A stretch of DNA of 64,000 bases. It comes from Haloferax gibbonsii ATCC 33959. GTDB lineage: Archaea; Halobacteriota; Halobacteria; Halobacteriales; Haloferacaceae. Position numbers and translations under genes: made by a program. Where the stretch lies: assembly GCF_000336775.1 (NCBI RefSeq), contig NZ_AOLJ01000025.1, positions 62,001 to 126,000 on the forward strand. The letters are read 5' to 3'. Shown here piece by piece: positions 10,935 to 18,530 of the stretch (positions are counted from its first letter, which is position 1; every line of letters begins with the position of its first letter). The notes under the pieces were generated by a model. It did no database searches. It was not told the DNA's origin and saw only the letters and a program-made list of their open reading frames with translations.

Positions 10935-11912
10935 ATGTCGGAAGCCGAAGCCTTCCCGGACTACCTCGACGTCGACTACACCGACGGCGAGGGCGAGACG
11001 CCGGAGGACTACCCGAGTATCGAGGACAAGATCGAGAAGGCCATCGAGGTCACGAAGCAGGGACTCGAGCAGTACGAGAACCCCGCCGTGATGTGGACCG
11101 GTGGCAAGGACTCCACGCTCACGCTCTACTTCATCAAGGAGGTCGCAGAGCGCTACGACCTCGAAGTCCCGCCGGCGGTCTTCATCGACCACTACCAGCA
11201 CTTCGACGAGATCATGGACTTCGTCAAGCACTGGGCCGACGAGTGGGACCTCGACGTCATCTGGGCCCGCAACGAGGACGTCGGCGCGTACGTCGACGAG
11301 AACGGCCTCGAACCCGGCGACGACATCCCCGTCTCGGAACTCTCCGAGCACAACCAGCACCACATCCGCAACATCCTCGAGTACGAAGAGGACACCTTCC
11401 CCTTCCTGCTCGACACCTACGTCGGCAACCACCTGCTGAAGACCGTCGCGCTCAACGACACGCTCGAGGAGTACGACATCGACGGCGTCATCTCCGGCGT
11501 CCGCTGGGACGAACAGGAAGCCCGCGCCGACGAGACGTTCTTCAGCCCCCGTCACAACCCCGACATCTACCCCCCGCACGACCGCATTCAACCCATCCTC
11601 CAGTTCGAAGAGAGCGCCGTCTGGGACGCCTTCTGGTACTTCGCGGTCCCGGACACCGTCGAGAACTACCCCGAGGACGGCTACGTCCCCACGAGTGACA
11701 CCGACCTCCCCGAGGGCGTCACGCAGGAGGACGTTCCCGTCTCGCCGAAGTACTTCGCCGGCTTCCGGAGTCTCGGCAGCGAGGTCTCGACCGACAAGTC
11801 CGCCGAGGAACCGGCGTGGCTGCAGGACATGGAGAACACGACCGAGCGCGCGGGCCGCGCCCAGGACAAAGAGGACCTGATGGAGCGCCTGCGCGACCTC
11901 GGCTACATGTGA
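10935..11912 (+). CDS. PAPS reductase / CysD-like PP-loop protein, copy 1
   Basis: 325 residues of the adenine nucleotide alpha-hydrolase family. The PP-loop is TGGKDST at about residue 55, followed by YFIKEVAERYDLEVPPAVFIDH, and further on SGVRWDEQEARADETFFSPRH, which parallels the GARRDEEKSRAKE region of the sulfate adenylyltransferase small subunit. It probably activates or reduces a sulfur compound, but substrate and partner cannot be told. It is strongly similar over its whole length to the next gene, including the shared C-terminus RAQDKEDLMERLRDLGYM. The two are about 135 bases apart and look like a tandem duplication. Confidence 0.88.
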   Translation: MSEAEAFPDYLDVDYTDGEGETPEDYPSIEDKIEKAIEVTKQGLEQYENPAVMWTGGKDSTLTLYFIKEVAERYDLEVPPAVFIDHYQHFDEIMDFVKHWADEWDLDVIWARNEDVGAYVDENGLEPGDDIPVSELSEHNQHHIRNILEYEEDTFPFLLDTYVGNHLLKTVALNDTLEEYDIDGVISGVRWDEQEARADETFFSPRHNPDIYPPHDRIQPILQFEESAVWDAFWYFAVPDTVENYPEDGYVPTSDTDLPEGVTQEDVPVSPKYFAGFRSLGSEVSTDKSAEEPAWLQDMENTTERAGRAQDKEDLMERLRDLGYM

Positions 11913-12046
11913 AGTCGGTCGACGGCTAACCCGACGAGACGTTCTTTTTCGACGCTGGCTCCCCGACGCCGACTGCAGAGAGTGACCGCGACTGCGACTG
12001 TCTCGCAGCGGAAACAGGGATATCCTCAGCGAGCGACATCTGTGGC

Positions 12047-13000
12047 ATGAGCCTCGCGTTCCCCGACTATCTCGACCTCGACTACGCCGACGGCCGAGAC
12101 CAGACCGCCGCCGACTACCCGACGCTCGAAGACAAACTCCAGAAAGCGGCCGCGGTGACCGCGACCGCCCTCGAACAGTACGAGCGCCCGGCCGTCATGT
12201 GGACCGGCGGCAAGGACTCCACGCTCGTCCTCTACGTCGTCCGCGAGGTCGCCGCCGACATGGGCGTTCCCGTCCCGCCCGTCGTCTTTATCGACCACTT
12301 CGAGCACTTCGACGAGACCGAGGCGTTCGTCCGCGAGTGGGCCGACCGATGGGGCCTCGACCTCGTCGTCGCCCGCAACGAGGACTTCGCGCGACTCGGC
12401 GCGTCGCCCGGCGACGAGATTCCCCTCTCGGAGCTCGGCGACGACACCCGCCGCGAACTCGCCCGCCTCGGCTACGAGGGCGAGACCATCGTCCTCGACG
12501 CCGACACCTTCGAGGGCAACCACCTGCTGAAGACCGTCGCGCTCAACGACACGCTCGAAGACCGCGGCTTCGACGGCGTCTTCTCGGGCGTCCGCTGGGA
12601 CGAACAGGAAGCCCGCGCCGACGAGACGTTCTTCAGCCCTCGTCACGACTCCGAGAGATATCCGCCGCACGACCGCGTCCACTCCATCCTCCAGTTCGAG
12701 GAGGCCGACGTGTGGGCGGCGTTCTGGAACTACATCGTCCCCGACTCGGTCGAGGGCTACCCGGCGGGCCACGTCCCCGCCGCTCTCGACGACCTCCCGG
12801 AGGGCGTCGAACCCGCCGACCTCCCCGTCTCGCCGAAGTACTTCGAGGGCTACCGCTCGCTCGGCACCGAATCCGGCTCCGCGAAGTCCGACGACCGACC
12901 CGCGTGGGTGCAGGACCTCGGCGCGAGCGCGGAACGCGAGGGGCGCGCGCAGGACAAAGAGGACCTGATGGGTCGGCTTCGCGACTTGGGTTACATGTAA
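12047..13000 (+). CDS. PAPS reductase / CysD-like PP-loop protein, copy 2
   Basis: 317 residues, a paralogue of the gene just upstream. It has the same PP-loop (MWTGGKDSTLVLY), the same SGVRWDEQEARADETFFSPRH block and the same RAQDKEDLMGRLRDLGYM end. It differs in the stretch of about 30 residues before GNHLLKTVALNDTLED, where copy 1 has a longer insert. The palindromes before copy 1 are missing here; GGATATCC about 25 bases upstream may serve as the TATA region. It may have specialised for another substrate or expression condition. It is followed 72 bases later by a third PP-loop protein. Confidence 0.88.
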   Translation: MSLAFPDYLDLDYADGRDQTAADYPTLEDKLQKAAAVTATALEQYERPAVMWTGGKDSTLVLYVVREVAADMGVPVPPVVFIDHFEHFDETEAFVREWADRWGLDLVVARNEDFARLGASPGDEIPLSELGDDTRRELARLGYEGETIVLDADTFEGNHLLKTVALNDTLEDRGFDGVFSGVRWDEQEARADETFFSPRHDSERYPPHDRVHSILQFEEADVWAAFWNYIVPDSVEGYPAGHVPAALDDLPEGVEPADLPVSPKYFEGYRSLGTESGSAKSDDRPAWVQDLGASAEREGRAQDKEDLMGRLRDLGYM

Positions 13001-13072: not shown

Positions 13073-13783
13073 ATGACAGCCGAGTGGGTCAGCCTCTTTT
13101 CGGGCGGGAAGGACTCCTCGTGGGCGCTCTACCGCGCGCTCGAGGAGGGTCTGAACGTCACCCGTCTTCTGACCGTCCACCCCAGCGACGACTCGTACAT
13201 GTACCACGTGCCGGCGACCGACCTCGCCGCGCTCGCCGCCGAAAGCACCGGCATCGAACTCGTCGAGGTCCACCCCGGCGACCTCGAAGCGACCGACGCC
13301 GACGACTCGGGCGCGCAGGGCGACGCCGAACTCGAACCCCTCGAAGCGGCGCTGTCGGACCTCCAATCCAAGATCGACCTCGCGGGCGTCACGGCTGGAG
13401 CCATCGAAAGTGAGTTCCAGACCAACCGGATTCAGGCGATGTGCGACCGCCTCGGAATCGACCTGTTCGCCCCGCTGTGGCAGGAAGACCCCCGCGAACT
13501 CGGCGACGCCATGCTCGAGGCGGGCTTCGAAATCACCATCATCCAGGTCGCGGCCCACGGCCTCGACGAGTCGTGGCTCGGCCGGACGCTCGACGCCGAC
13601 GCGCTCGACGAACTGGAGGCGCTCAACGAGCAGTACGGCGTCCACATCCTCGGCGAGGGCGGCGAGTTCGAGACGCTCGTCACCGACGGCCCGCACATGG
13701 ACCGCCCCATCGAACTGGAGTACGAGACGGAGTGGGAGGGGACTCACGGCAGGCTCCGCATCACCGACGCGTACCTCGGCTAA
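13073..13783 (+). CDS. dph6: Diphthine-ammonia ligase (Dph6 family)
   Basis: 236 residues of the DUF71/ATP-PPase family. It makes the last step of diphthamide on elongation factor 2, adding an amide with ATP and ammonia. The PP-loop is SLFSGGKDSSWAL at residues 8-20, and family blocks GAIESEFQTNRIQAMCDRLGI, PLWQEDPRELGDAMLEAGF and LGEGGEFETLVTDGP are clear. Length is normal for the archaeal single-domain form. It is the third PP-loop protein in a row. A tandem 18-base repeat separates it from the convergent nucleotidyltransferase gene. Confidence 0.92.
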   Translation: MTAEWVSLFSGGKDSSWALYRALEEGLNVTRLLTVHPSDDSYMYHVPATDLAALAAESTGIELVEVHPGDLEATDADDSGAQGDAELEPLEAALSDLQSKIDLAGVTAGAIESEFQTNRIQAMCDRLGIDLFAPLWQEDPRELGDAMLEAGFEITIIQVAAHGLDESWLGRTLDADALDELEALNEQYGVHILGEGGEFETLVTDGPHMDRPIELEYETEWEGTHGRLRITDAYLG

Positions 13784-14923: not shown

Positions 14924-15223
14924 ATGACAGCCCGGGAGTCCGACACGACGGCCCGCCAGCGCATCGCCGACGCCCTCCGCGACGACCCCGCGACGGCCTC
15001 CGAGCTTTCGGCGAGCGTCGGCGTCTCGGTGTCGTCGGTGTACGGCCACCTCCAGCACGTCGCTCAAACAGTCCACGGAGCGGACGGCGAGCAGTTCCTC
15101 GTCGCGCCGCCGGAGTGCAAACACTGCGGCTTCAGCGCCTTCGACGACCCCGTGAACTACCCCTCGCGGTGCCCGGAGTGTCGAAGCGAGGGCATCGAAG
15201 AGGCCGTGTTCAAAATCGAGTAG
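14924..15223 (+). CDS. HTH and zinc-ribbon transcription regulator
   Basis: 99 residues. Residues about 10-55 form a winged-helix or HTH domain (RQRIADALRDDPATASELSASVGVSVSSVYGHLQHVAQTV). Residues about 65-90 are a zinc ribbon with CKHC and CPEC knuckles. This HTH plus zinc-ribbon arrangement is a known archaeal predicted-regulator family (COG3357 type). Targets are unknown. A palindrome on its own TATA position suggests it may control itself. It converges on the SRA-HNH gene with only nine bases between the stops. Confidence 0.88.
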   Translation: MTARESDTTARQRIADALRDDPATASELSASVGVSVSSVYGHLQHVAQTVHGADGEQFLVAPPECKHCGFSAFDDPVNYPSRCPECRSEGIEEAVFKIE

Positions 15224-15232
15224 TCGGTCGGT

Positions 15233-16078
15233 CTAAAACGACGCCACGGTCCGATTGTGGTAGTCGAGGGAGTCGGCGTCGAGGTCGTGGTCCTCGCGGA
15301 CCGAAAGCGAGGTGCCGTCCAACTCGCGTTCGTAGGCGTGGGCGATAGTGTACGTCTCGGGGTCGACGGCTATCATTCCGTAGTCGAAGTCAGCGTGGTG
15401 GTCCGGACAGAGAACGAGGAGATTCGCCTCGACGTCCGGGCCGTCGTGGGGCCGCCCGAGCGGTTTGAGATGGTGCGCCTCCGCGTAGCCGTCGTGGACT
15501 CCTCGACGGCGACGCTCTCCACAGACCTGGCACGTGTGAGAGTACCGCTCTTTCAACTCGGTCGCAAGCGCCGTGTTTCGAATGATTCGGCTTCGCGTCG
15601 TCGCGGTGCGTTCCGCGGGCGCGAGGTCCGCCGCGGCTTCTTCCTCGTCGATCCGCTCTCGCCTCTCGTGACGGCGGCGGAGCACGAACCGGTAGACGTC
15701 CCTGTCGTCTCCCTCGAACGGGCCGTGCGCGTAGTCGACGACTTCGACCTGACCCTGGTACTCCCAGTCAGCCCCGGCCGATCCTCGATGGAAGAAAAAT
15801 ATCGGTAACGGATGGTGTTTGGCCCGCGCGAGGAACTTGTTGCCACCGGTGAGCGTCTGGTCGCCGGTCCGCCCCTCTCCGATGTACGTGAACTGGCCGC
15901 CGGTCACGTCGTCGCCGTACGGTCCGGTATCGCTCGAAAAGAGGCGGAGATACCGCTGGTCGTCGTCGTCGTAGCAGATTTCGATGCCGCGGCCCGTCAT
16001 TCCGCGGTCGAATCGGGACCGGAGTTCCGACCCGCTCAACCGCTCTCCGGGTTCGAGCGAGAGCCCTGCGAGTTTCAC
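15233..16078 (-). CDS. SRA-like / HNH endonuclease, probably modification-dependent
   Basis: 281 residues. Residues about 26-135 look like an SRA (YDG) domain, the fold that flips out a modified cytosine: YGDDVTGGQFTYIGEGRTGDQ, LTGGNKFLARA, then a beta-strand region ending DVYRFVLRR. Residues 180-235 are an HNH nuclease with CQVC, the catalytic pair H202-H203 in AEAHHLKPLG, Asn219, and CPDHHADFD. Bacterial SRA-HNH proteins act as type IV restriction enzymes on 5-methylcytosine or related DNA. The GTG start has a TATA-like CCTTTTTC 27 bases upstream on the minus strand. No methyltransferase is next to it. Confidence 0.85.
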   Translation of the reverse strand: MKLAGLSLEPGERLSGSELRSRFDRGMTGRGIEICYDDDDQRYLRLFSSDTGPYGDDVTGGQFTYIGEGRTGDQTLTGGNKFLARAKHHPLPIFFFHRGSAGADWEYQGQVEVVDYAHGPFEGDDRDVYRFVLRRRHERRERIDEEEAAADLAPAERTATTRSRIIRNTALATELKERYSHTCQVCGERRRRGVHDGYAEAHHLKPLGRPHDGPDVEANLLVLCPDHHADFDYGMIAVDPETYTIAHAYERELDGTSLSVREDHDLDADSLDYHNRTVASF

Positions 16079-16147: not shown

Positions 16148-16831
16148 TTATGCCGCGTCTAACTCGTCCAAGAGCGTCCGCGCCGCCGCCGACGAGGAGC
16201 CGGGACCGCGCGCGGTGATGAGGTCGCCGTCGACCGTGACGCTGGTGTCGCTGTCGAGTTCGGCGTCCCAGACGCCGCCGGCGGCCTTCACCTCGTCTTC
16301 GACCCAGTACGGGAGCTTTCGGCCGTCGGGCATCAGGTCGTTTTCGTCGACGATGCCTTCCTCCCACTCGTTGGGGAAGCCGGTGACCTCGCGTCCCTCG
16401 ACGAGGAACGAGCCGTCGGCCTCGCGGGTGAACCCGAGGATGCCGACCGCGTGACAGACGACGAGCGCCTTCGAGTCGTCGCCGGCGACCGCCTGCAAGA
16501 GCGCCTGTCGGGCGTGTCGGTCCTGATTGACGTCCCACGCGGTTCCGTGGCCGCCGGGGAACACCACGGCGTCGTACTCGCGGGCGTCGACCTGCGCAAT
16601 CGGCTCCGGATTCTGCAGTCGCTCGTCGTTCTCGTGGACCTCGACGACGCGTTCGGCGAGTTCCTCGCCGACCTCCTCGGGGTCGATAGAGCGCTCGTCG
16701 ACGACCGGCGGCGCGCCCGTCGGCGTCGCGACCGTCACGTCCACTCCGGCGTCGGTCAGGGTAGTGAGCGGCTCGATGCATTCCTCTCCCCAGTAGCCGT
16801 CTTCGCTGACGATGAAAAGCGCCGATGTCAT
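16148..16831 (-). CDS. DJ-1/PfpI family protein
   Basis: 227 residues of the class I glutamine-amidotransferase-like superfamily. The nucleophile elbow is the cysteine in ALVVCHAVGIL, with an acidic residue near the N-terminus in GYWGEECIEPL and the block FPGGHGTAWDVNQ. Related proteins act as Hsp31-type chaperones, glyoxalases or deglycases that remove methylglyoxal damage; which one applies here cannot be told. Start chosen at MTSALFIVSEDG. It lies upstream of the SRA-HNH gene on the same strand with a 69-base gap. Confidence 0.9.
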   Translation of the reverse strand: MTSALFIVSEDGYWGEECIEPLTTLTDAGVDVTVATPTGAPPVVDERSIDPEEVGEELAERVVEVHENDERLQNPEPIAQVDAREYDAVVFPGGHGTAWDVNQDRHARQALLQAVAGDDSKALVVCHAVGILGFTREADGSFLVEGREVTGFPNEWEEGIVDENDLMPDGRKLPYWVEDEVKAAGGVWDAELDSDTSVTVDGDLITARGPGSSSAAARTLLDELDAA

Positions 16832-16933
16832 CGCTCCCGGGTACGGTCCGGCCACAAAAAGGCCCCGCGGAGGCGGAAATCCGCGGGGGAGGGCGGCGCG
16901 ACGGTGAGGCGTCGCGGCCGCGTCGGTGTCGGG

Positions 16934-17660: not shown

Positions 17661-18083
17661 TTACATCCCGCCGAGAAGTTGTGACGCGGTCTTCACCAGC
17701 GGTTCGACGGTTTCGTCGGGCTCGACGAAAAGCAGCATGCCACGGCCGCCGCAGTAGACCTGCAACACGCCGTAGCCGTCGCGTTCCTCGAACCGGTACT
17801 CGACGCTGTTCTGTACCGGACTAAGCCCGGAAAACAGCCCGCGCTCCATGAACTCGCGCCGAGTCTCCTCGGCGAGCGAACTCAGGTGCGTCACGAGTTC
17901 GTCGCGACTCCCGAAGTCCTCGCGGACCGACTCCCCGACGTGAAACAGGTCGAAGGCCGTCGCACCGTAGACGGCGACCAGAGAGACTGCCCCCTTCGCA
18001 GTCCCCCGAAGCGCGTCCATCGCGACCTCGCTGTCGGGCCCCGGTCCGTTGACGGATGCCATCCGTGACGGGTCGATTATCAT
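17661..18083 (-). CDS. Unknown protein, translation probably coupled to a leader ORF
   Basis: 140 residues if started at the ATG at 18083; an inner ATG at 18062 is also possible. It has a mixed alpha/beta pattern with VAMDALRGTAKGAVSLVAVYG, a segment LFHVGESVREDFGSRDELVTHLSSLAEE, and a glycine-rich end LQVYCGGRGMLLFVEPDE. It is less acidic than its neighbours; I do not recognise the family. The nearest promoter (18172-18179) would start the transcript at 18148, at the ATG of a different frame that ends across this gene's ATG. Confidence 0.7.
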   Translation of the reverse strand: MIIDPSRMASVNGPGPDSEVAMDALRGTAKGAVSLVAVYGATAFDLFHVGESVREDFGSRDELVTHLSSLAEETRREFMERGLFSGLSPVQNSVEYRFEERDGYGVLQVYCGGRGMLLFVEPDETVEPLVKTASQLLGGM

Positions 18084-18148
18084 TCGTTTCCCCCCTTGCC
18101 CTGACGCTGCGCGTCTCCCTGCCCGGAGCGCGCGCCTGGACGTATCAT
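18080..18148 (-). CDS. Candidate leaderless 22-codon leader ORF
   Basis: The ATG at 18148 is exactly 27 bases behind the centre of TTTATAAT on the minus strand, so a leaderless transcript would start on it. The frame encodes 22 residues beginning MIRPGARSGQGDAQ, basic and Gly-rich, and its TGA overlaps the ATG of the next frame (ATGA at 18083-18080). Ribosomes finishing it could restart on the main gene. It has no known homologue. Confidence 0.4.
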   Translation of the reverse strand: MIRPGARSGQGDAQRQGKGGNE

Positions 18149-18171
18149 AGATGTCCGATTGTGAGTCAGTA

Positions 18172-18179
18172 TTATAAAT
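18172..18179 (-). promoter_or_regulatory. TATA box of the 18148/18083 gene
   Basis: On the minus strand this reads TTTATAAT, a strong archaeal TATA box. Its centre is 27 bases before the ATG at 18148. Confidence 0.6.
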
Positions 18180-18530
18180 TTGAGGGTCACACTGGAGGTA
18201 ATAATTCGCCCCCGCCAAATCCGGCCGGAGACCACCTGAAACCGCCGTCTACTGCGAGACCTGACTCCCTGATTTGACCCCGGTCTCGAGGACGGCGTTT
18301 CGACCCCCTCGTGGCTGGTAGGAACCGTTACGAAACGTGTCCGCGAGCGCGATATCGCACAAACACATCGATTTTTAATGAACTACAGTACTCGAATTTT
18401 CAGTTATCTCATCTCAAAACCAACAGACAGCGTAGTGGTTCGGGGTCGGTTCCGCCTTCTCCAGCATTCTAGGACGATTCGACAAATATTATCCTTTCAT
18501 TTTGTCGATTGGCTACAAAACCCGATTGAA

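Follow-up and report, generated by a model that had tools for sequence, protein, structure and literature searches.

The restriction enzymes closest to the protein described here are TagI from Thermocrispum agreste, ScoA3IV (Sco5333) and TbiR51I (Tbis1), which make up a family with an SRA domain followed by an HNH nuclease (PMC6212794). A CxxH variant of the zinc site, with His in place of Asp at one ligand, has been reported within this family. T. agreste is reported to have no C5-methyltransferase, and the authors of that study explained the tolerance of TagI by this feature of the host (PMC6212794). Among haloarchaeal systems, HHPV4I (HhiV4I) of Haloarcula virus HHPV4 has the order SRA-winged helix-HNH. 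HHPV4I acts through its DpnI-like winged helix, which reads Gm6ATC; it does not cut DNA with 5mC, 5hmC or g5hmC, and no binding to such DNA was detected (PMC10101028). In ScoMcrA (Sco4631), a sulfur-binding domain (SBD) precedes the SRA and HNH domains. EcoKMcrA (N-domain and HNH) and VcaM4I (EVE-HNH) likewise join a modification sensor to an HNH nuclease, but their sensors, NEco and EVE, differ from that of the protein studied here.

The window, a stretch of 64,000 nucleotides from Haloferax gibbonsii, carries an SRA-HNH gene on its minus strand (Table 1). The first-pass annotation had proposed a candidate type IV modification-dependent restriction enzyme, a proposal that both the sequence and the predicted fold back. 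The open reading frame is a real gene under purifying selection, since its dN/dS is mostly ~0.1 (0.09-0.12 against five of six Haloferax relatives, 0.25 against the closest), 17 other intact orthologs exist (45-99% identity), and the start codon is conserved together with a promoter-like, T-rich box ~24-30 bases before it in most orthologs. At this distance, the box would suit a haloarchaeal promoter whose transcript has little or no leader, suggesting that the gene has its own promoter and perhaps a leaderless mRNA.

Table 1. Features of the SRA-HNH gene and its borders (positions in the window)
Feature	Position	Strand	Basis or remark
SRA-HNH nuclease gene	15233..16078	-	281 aa; GTG start at 16078, stop 15233-15235
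Predicted SRA domain, residues 1-140	15659..16078	-	predicted-fold matches and sequence matches
Putative flipped-base pocket segment, Y54-G-D56-D57-...-Y65 (TagI Y55/D58/Y67)	15884..15919	-	alignment
Acidic/charged linker, residues 141-164	15587..15658	-	AlphaFold model, low confidence there
Predicted HNH (beta-beta-alpha-metal) nuclease domain, residues 165-281	15236..15586	-	Pfam, PDB and profile matches
HNH core, residues 183-239: predicted zinc ligands C183, C186, C224, H227; predicted catalytic residues H203, N219, H228, D232	15362..15532	-	
Conserved T-rich (TATA-like) box CTTTTTC, about 24-30 bases 5' of the start codon	16102..16108	-	
PF0610-like winged helix and zinc ribbon (HTH/zinc-ribbon) gene	14924..15223	+	convergent; one border of the site
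DJ-1/PfpI family gene	16148..16855	-	upstream, same strand; other border of the site

Several lines of evidence identify the N-terminal half as an SRA domain. The Pfam SAD_SRA model matches residues 52-137 with a value of 0.0036, which is below the Pfam cut-off. Since this match alone is sub-threshold, the assignment relies on the PADLOC mREase_IV match (3e-8, residues 43-113), on the match to the SRA domain of ScoMcrA in the PDB search, and on the predicted fold. When searched against its own genome, the SAD_SRA model does not recover the window SRA, so that absence by this model is no evidence of absence. AlphaFold drew on a shallow alignment of 8 sequences, and the resulting model has a mean pLDDT of 58, with values mostly of 75-84 in the SRA and about 50 in the HNH half. 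In this model, the SRA fold expected from the first-pass annotation is found: residues 5-140 best match the SRA of SUVH5 (Z 12.6, rmsd 2.8 over 126 residues), and the SUVH5 structures with 5mC or 5hmC DNA are the best fold matches overall (Z 12.3-12.6). The SRA of ScoMcrA (Z 11.1), MspJI (10.9), UHRF1 (10.7) and TagI (10.6) match as well. In addition, a profile built from the 18 orthologs aligns to TagI over residues 52-278, from the pocket to the C-terminus (E 2e-28), and gives weak matches to UHRF1 and SUVH6 that are in register at the pocket.

The alignment points to an aromatic/carboxylate pocket suited to a flipped modified cytosine. Y54, D57 (with D56 adjacent) and Y65 correspond to Y55, D58 and Y67 of TagI. 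Y54 and D56 are invariant among the 18 orthologs; four divergent members have N, K or S in place of D57, and two have F in place of Y65, while the Haloferax clade retains Y54, D56, D57 and Y65. The SRA motif GPY-D...YxGxGxxGDQxLxxGN is common to ScoMcrA and the window protein.

The C-terminal half is a complete HNH nuclease domain with a structural zinc site; the claim rests on sequence, since the model has low confidence in this half. Pfam HNH_2 matches residues 183-239 (E 3e-11), and in the PDB search this half is closest to TagI (6ghs, residues 147-276, E 7e-20). All active-site and zinc positions of TagI are filled in the alignment. The nuclease residues would be H203 (H229 in TagI), N219 (N245), H228 (H254) and D232 (D258, a further metal ligand), and the zinc ligands C183 (C210), C186 (C213), C224 (C250) and H227 (D253). 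The first-pass annotation had listed H202, H203, N219 and H227 as a complete HNH site. The site is indeed complete, but the TagI alignment makes H228 the second catalytic histidine and H227 the fourth zinc ligand. H202 occupies the place of A228 of TagI. H202, H203, N219, H227, H228 and D232 are all invariant among the 18 orthologs, as are the zinc-site cysteines C183, C186 and C224.

By its architecture, the protein is assigned to the TagI/ScoA3IV family, whose described members are bacterial. Like TagI, it has an SRA followed by an HNH domain, the same catalytic and pocket residues and a comparable length (281 versus 311), and its zinc site is of the CxxC...CxxH variant found in the TagI family. 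Unlike TagI, it is archaeal, its SRA identity is just about 20-25%, CxxH replaces CxxD, and it shares its genome with a C5-methyltransferase. Taking sequence, predicted fold and the analogy with TagI together, we consider it reasonably probable that the gene encodes a stand-alone, NTP-independent, C5-cytosine-dependent restriction endonuclease of the TagI/ScoA3IV kind. The N-terminal SRA would bind DNA and flip out a C5-modified cytosine (5mC and/or 5hmC, possibly in some contexts only) into the Tyr-Asp-Tyr pocket. The C-terminal HNH domains would then form a dimer that cleaves at a variable distance, and foreign DNA bearing the recognised mark would be broken. Base flipping, dimerisation, cutting at a distance and the preference for C5-modified cytosine are what we infer from TagI. 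Reading of C5-modified cytosine is suggested by the SRA fold, the pocket and the lack of any other sensor domain.

A methyltransferase gene in the same cell bears on the question of the target. The genome, that of Haloferax gibbonsii Ma2.38, encodes a C5-methyltransferase (G000:C22:280356-281396). Over 404 aa, this protein shares 100% identity with Dcm of Haloferax virus Halfgib1, and the 16 kb around its gene match the Halfgib1 record at 99.98-100%. This location coincides with the position published for the Halfgib1 provirus in Haloferax gibbonsii Ma2.38 (contig 22, nt 269,983-286,444), and Halfgib1 was recovered as an active, inducible provirus (PMC7911831). The methyltransferase motifs GPPCQ, ENV, QHRR and GNAV are intact. 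No cognate site can be deduced for the enzyme from its nearest plasmid relatives, which are <40% identical and carry no motif. HfxHg1_070, the neighbor of the Halfgib1 dcm gene, is annotated only as hypothetical; it matches the PADLOC REase_II model (3e-30) and looks like a type II restriction gene. A working restriction partner would require an active methyltransferase, so the Halfgib1 enzyme would be active if this partner works. The provirus, which lies outside the window, also carries a SIR2-TPR gene, HfxHg1_085, that matches defence models; the two genes (L050:9068-14293, contig 22 of G000) look like defence cargo of the virus.

One cell thus appears to hold a candidate C5-cytosine-triggered nuclease and an intact, predicted C5-methyltransferase. 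The first-pass annotation had argued that the tolerated specificity must differ from the marks made by the host's own systems, and the provirus-borne enzyme sharpens this point. Mutual exclusion between SRA-HNH genes and C5-methyltransferases, which the TagI host would lead one to expect, was not found among 391 haloarchaeal genomes: a C5-methyltransferase match is present in 9 of the 17 genomes with an intact full-length SRA-HNH gene versus 179 of the 374 others (Fisher p 0.8). Because no avoidance is seen, the explanation given for TagI fails here unless the methyltransferases are silent. Such inactivity was concluded for HVO_C0040 in H. volcanii (PMC5867850). Besides the Halfgib1 enzyme, five methyltransferases checked in haloarchaeal genomes keep the PC, ENV and QxR motifs. 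The same lack of avoidance indicates that the target is probably not 5mC in every context, but context-restricted 5mC, 5hmC or another mark. A tentative explanation for the coexistence of the nuclease and the proviral methyltransferase/restriction pair, which we regard as rather unlikely as it stands, is an SRA limited to certain contexts of C5-modified cytosine or to 5hmC. The nuclease would then be a chromosome-encoded barrier to entering viruses and mobile genes with C5-methyltransferases of other kinds, relatives of the provirus among them.

The main rival, which we hold to be the less likely, is an SRA-HNH nuclease whose SRA no longer reads 5mC or 5hmC in general. The SRA would instead recognise another mark, for example a cytosine modified in some uncommon way or context-dependent 4mC/6mA, or would serve as a DNA-binding module, and resident 5mC would be harmless. 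The SRA of HHPV4I offers a precedent, and the intact methyltransferase in the same genome, the absence of anti-correlation over the 391 genomes and the loss of D57 in divergent members all agree with such a change. HHPV4I, which is similar in its SRA and HNH domains (35% identity overall), retains the equivalents of Y54, D56 and Y65 and yet reads no C5-modified cytosine, so that the pocket motif alone is no proof of C5 reading. However, the residue that corresponds to D57 is Ser in HHPV4I, whereas the Haloferax clade keeps the full set of pocket residues. In addition, HHPV4I gives a Pfam DpnI_C match (2e-16) and the window protein gives none; in the alignment of the two proteins, the winged-helix insert between SRA and HNH is absent from the window protein, which has no other sensor to provide specificity. 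Recognition of 4mC or 6mA by an SRA domain is also not established in the literature surveyed.

The genomic setting is that of an inherited but dispensable gene. The HTH/zinc-ribbon and DJ-1 neighbors named in the first-pass annotation are correct by Pfam, and its placement of the gene outside any known defence island holds: the locus is a conserved chromosomal position common to several genera. At 14 of 18 loci, the gene lies between the PF0610-like and DJ-1 genes or at least keeps the PF0610-like neighbor. Within Haloferax, 9 of 15 genomes have the gene at this fixed site, while in the other six (G154, G040, G112, G244, G304, G261) the two flanking genes follow each other directly, at a distance of a few dozen bases; in G154, these flanks are 97-99% identical to those of the window. 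Across pairs of genomes, the distance between nucleases correlates with that between DJ-1 proteins (r 0.94) and with that for a nucleotidyltransferase gene (0.95) as closely as these two correlate with each other (0.93). All this is most simply read as vertical inheritance at a single Haloferacaceae site, with repeated loss. The SRA-HNH gene evolves faster than its neighbors, and its dS is ~2.5 times theirs in all but the closest pair, for which reason we consider that local allele exchange may have occurred at the locus. A mobile or viral origin was rejected, as tblastn found no relative in viral contigs and the locus itself looks vertical. Phage relatives of the protein are limited to HHPV4/HHPV3 (34-38%), plasmid matches are partial or of other architecture, and no near DNA match to the gene was found in the plasmid collection.

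A housekeeping nuclease for DNA maintenance would explain the fixed position across several genera and the vertical inheritance, seen in divergence that follows the neighbors so closely. We hold this to be improbable, since the gene is cleanly missing from the six Haloferax genomes, changes faster than the flanking genes and is frameshifted in two genomes, Halogeometricum pallidum (G358) and G303; furthermore, the SRA-HNH enzymes characterised in the literature surveyed are restriction enzymes. Clean presence and absence together with two frameshifted copies is the pattern of a dispensable defence gene.

A phosphorothioate-dependent nuclease like ScoMcrA, SprMcrA or EcoWI, the other kind of target suggested by the first-pass annotation, was rejected as highly improbable: the PT-restriction model NF045808 matches residues 165-242 and ScoMcrA is among the matches, but the NF045808 match covers the HNH part alone at 34.5 bits against a cut-off of 180, the part of ScoMcrA matched by the predicted N-terminal fold is its SRA region (chain 254-390) and not the sulfur-binding one, the HNH is nearer to that of TagI, a Pfam search of the protein gives no SBD match, and DndC was not found in the genome, though an enzyme against foreign phosphorothioate DNA would not need one.

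Halfgib1, HCTV-16 and Halogranum tailed virus 1 are haloviruses that encode C5-methyltransferases and are possible sources of marked DNA. Another virus, HFTV1, is reported to multiply poorly on Ma2.38 (PMC7921747). While the known SRA-HNH enzymes were described from bacteria, the present gene represents an archaeal lineage that occupies a stable site in the chromosome of organisms amenable to genetics. What is new is the fixed locus with vertical descent and repeated loss, and the life beside a proviral C5-methyltransferase, itself next to a putative type II restriction-enzyme gene. How a methylation-triggered nuclease and a cytosine methyltransferase are kept together in one cell thereby becomes a question that can be tested in the type strain. 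The gene is absent from the published restriction lists surveyed; as it also falls below the cut-off of the standard SRA model, such genes may have been overlooked in haloarchaea.

Related halves occur in other combinations. Relatives of the TagI-like HNH half of the window protein (about 50-60% identity to it) are joined to other N-terminal parts at six haloarchaeal loci (L021, L023, L025, L028, L030, L031); L028 has an EVE-like partner, L023 and L030 have partners with an HTH, and some partners belong to no known family. Conversely, SRA halves related to that of the window are joined to other HNH types in haloarchaea, and in two whole ORFs (L114, L115) a related SRA is followed by a putative PD-(D/E)XK nuclease (EVKS...IRKAIGQ, judged by eye) in place of the HNH. 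These sequences suggest that sensor and nuclease halves are exchanged freely in haloarchaea. A separate 246-aa protein (L051:9198-9938, G000:C25) carries an HNH motif at its N-terminal end and, after it, hydrophobic segments that probably span a membrane.

Two other regions of the window deserve mention. At 17661-18218, a 185-aa ORF gives no Pfam or NCBIfam match and is conserved beside a phosphoribosyltransferase gene in relatives. At 10935-13000, two PAPS-reductase-like genes (325 and 317 aa) stand in tandem, with a diphthamide-synthase-family gene beside them (13073-13783); outside Haloferax, relatives such as L040 may have one PAPS-reductase-like gene only.
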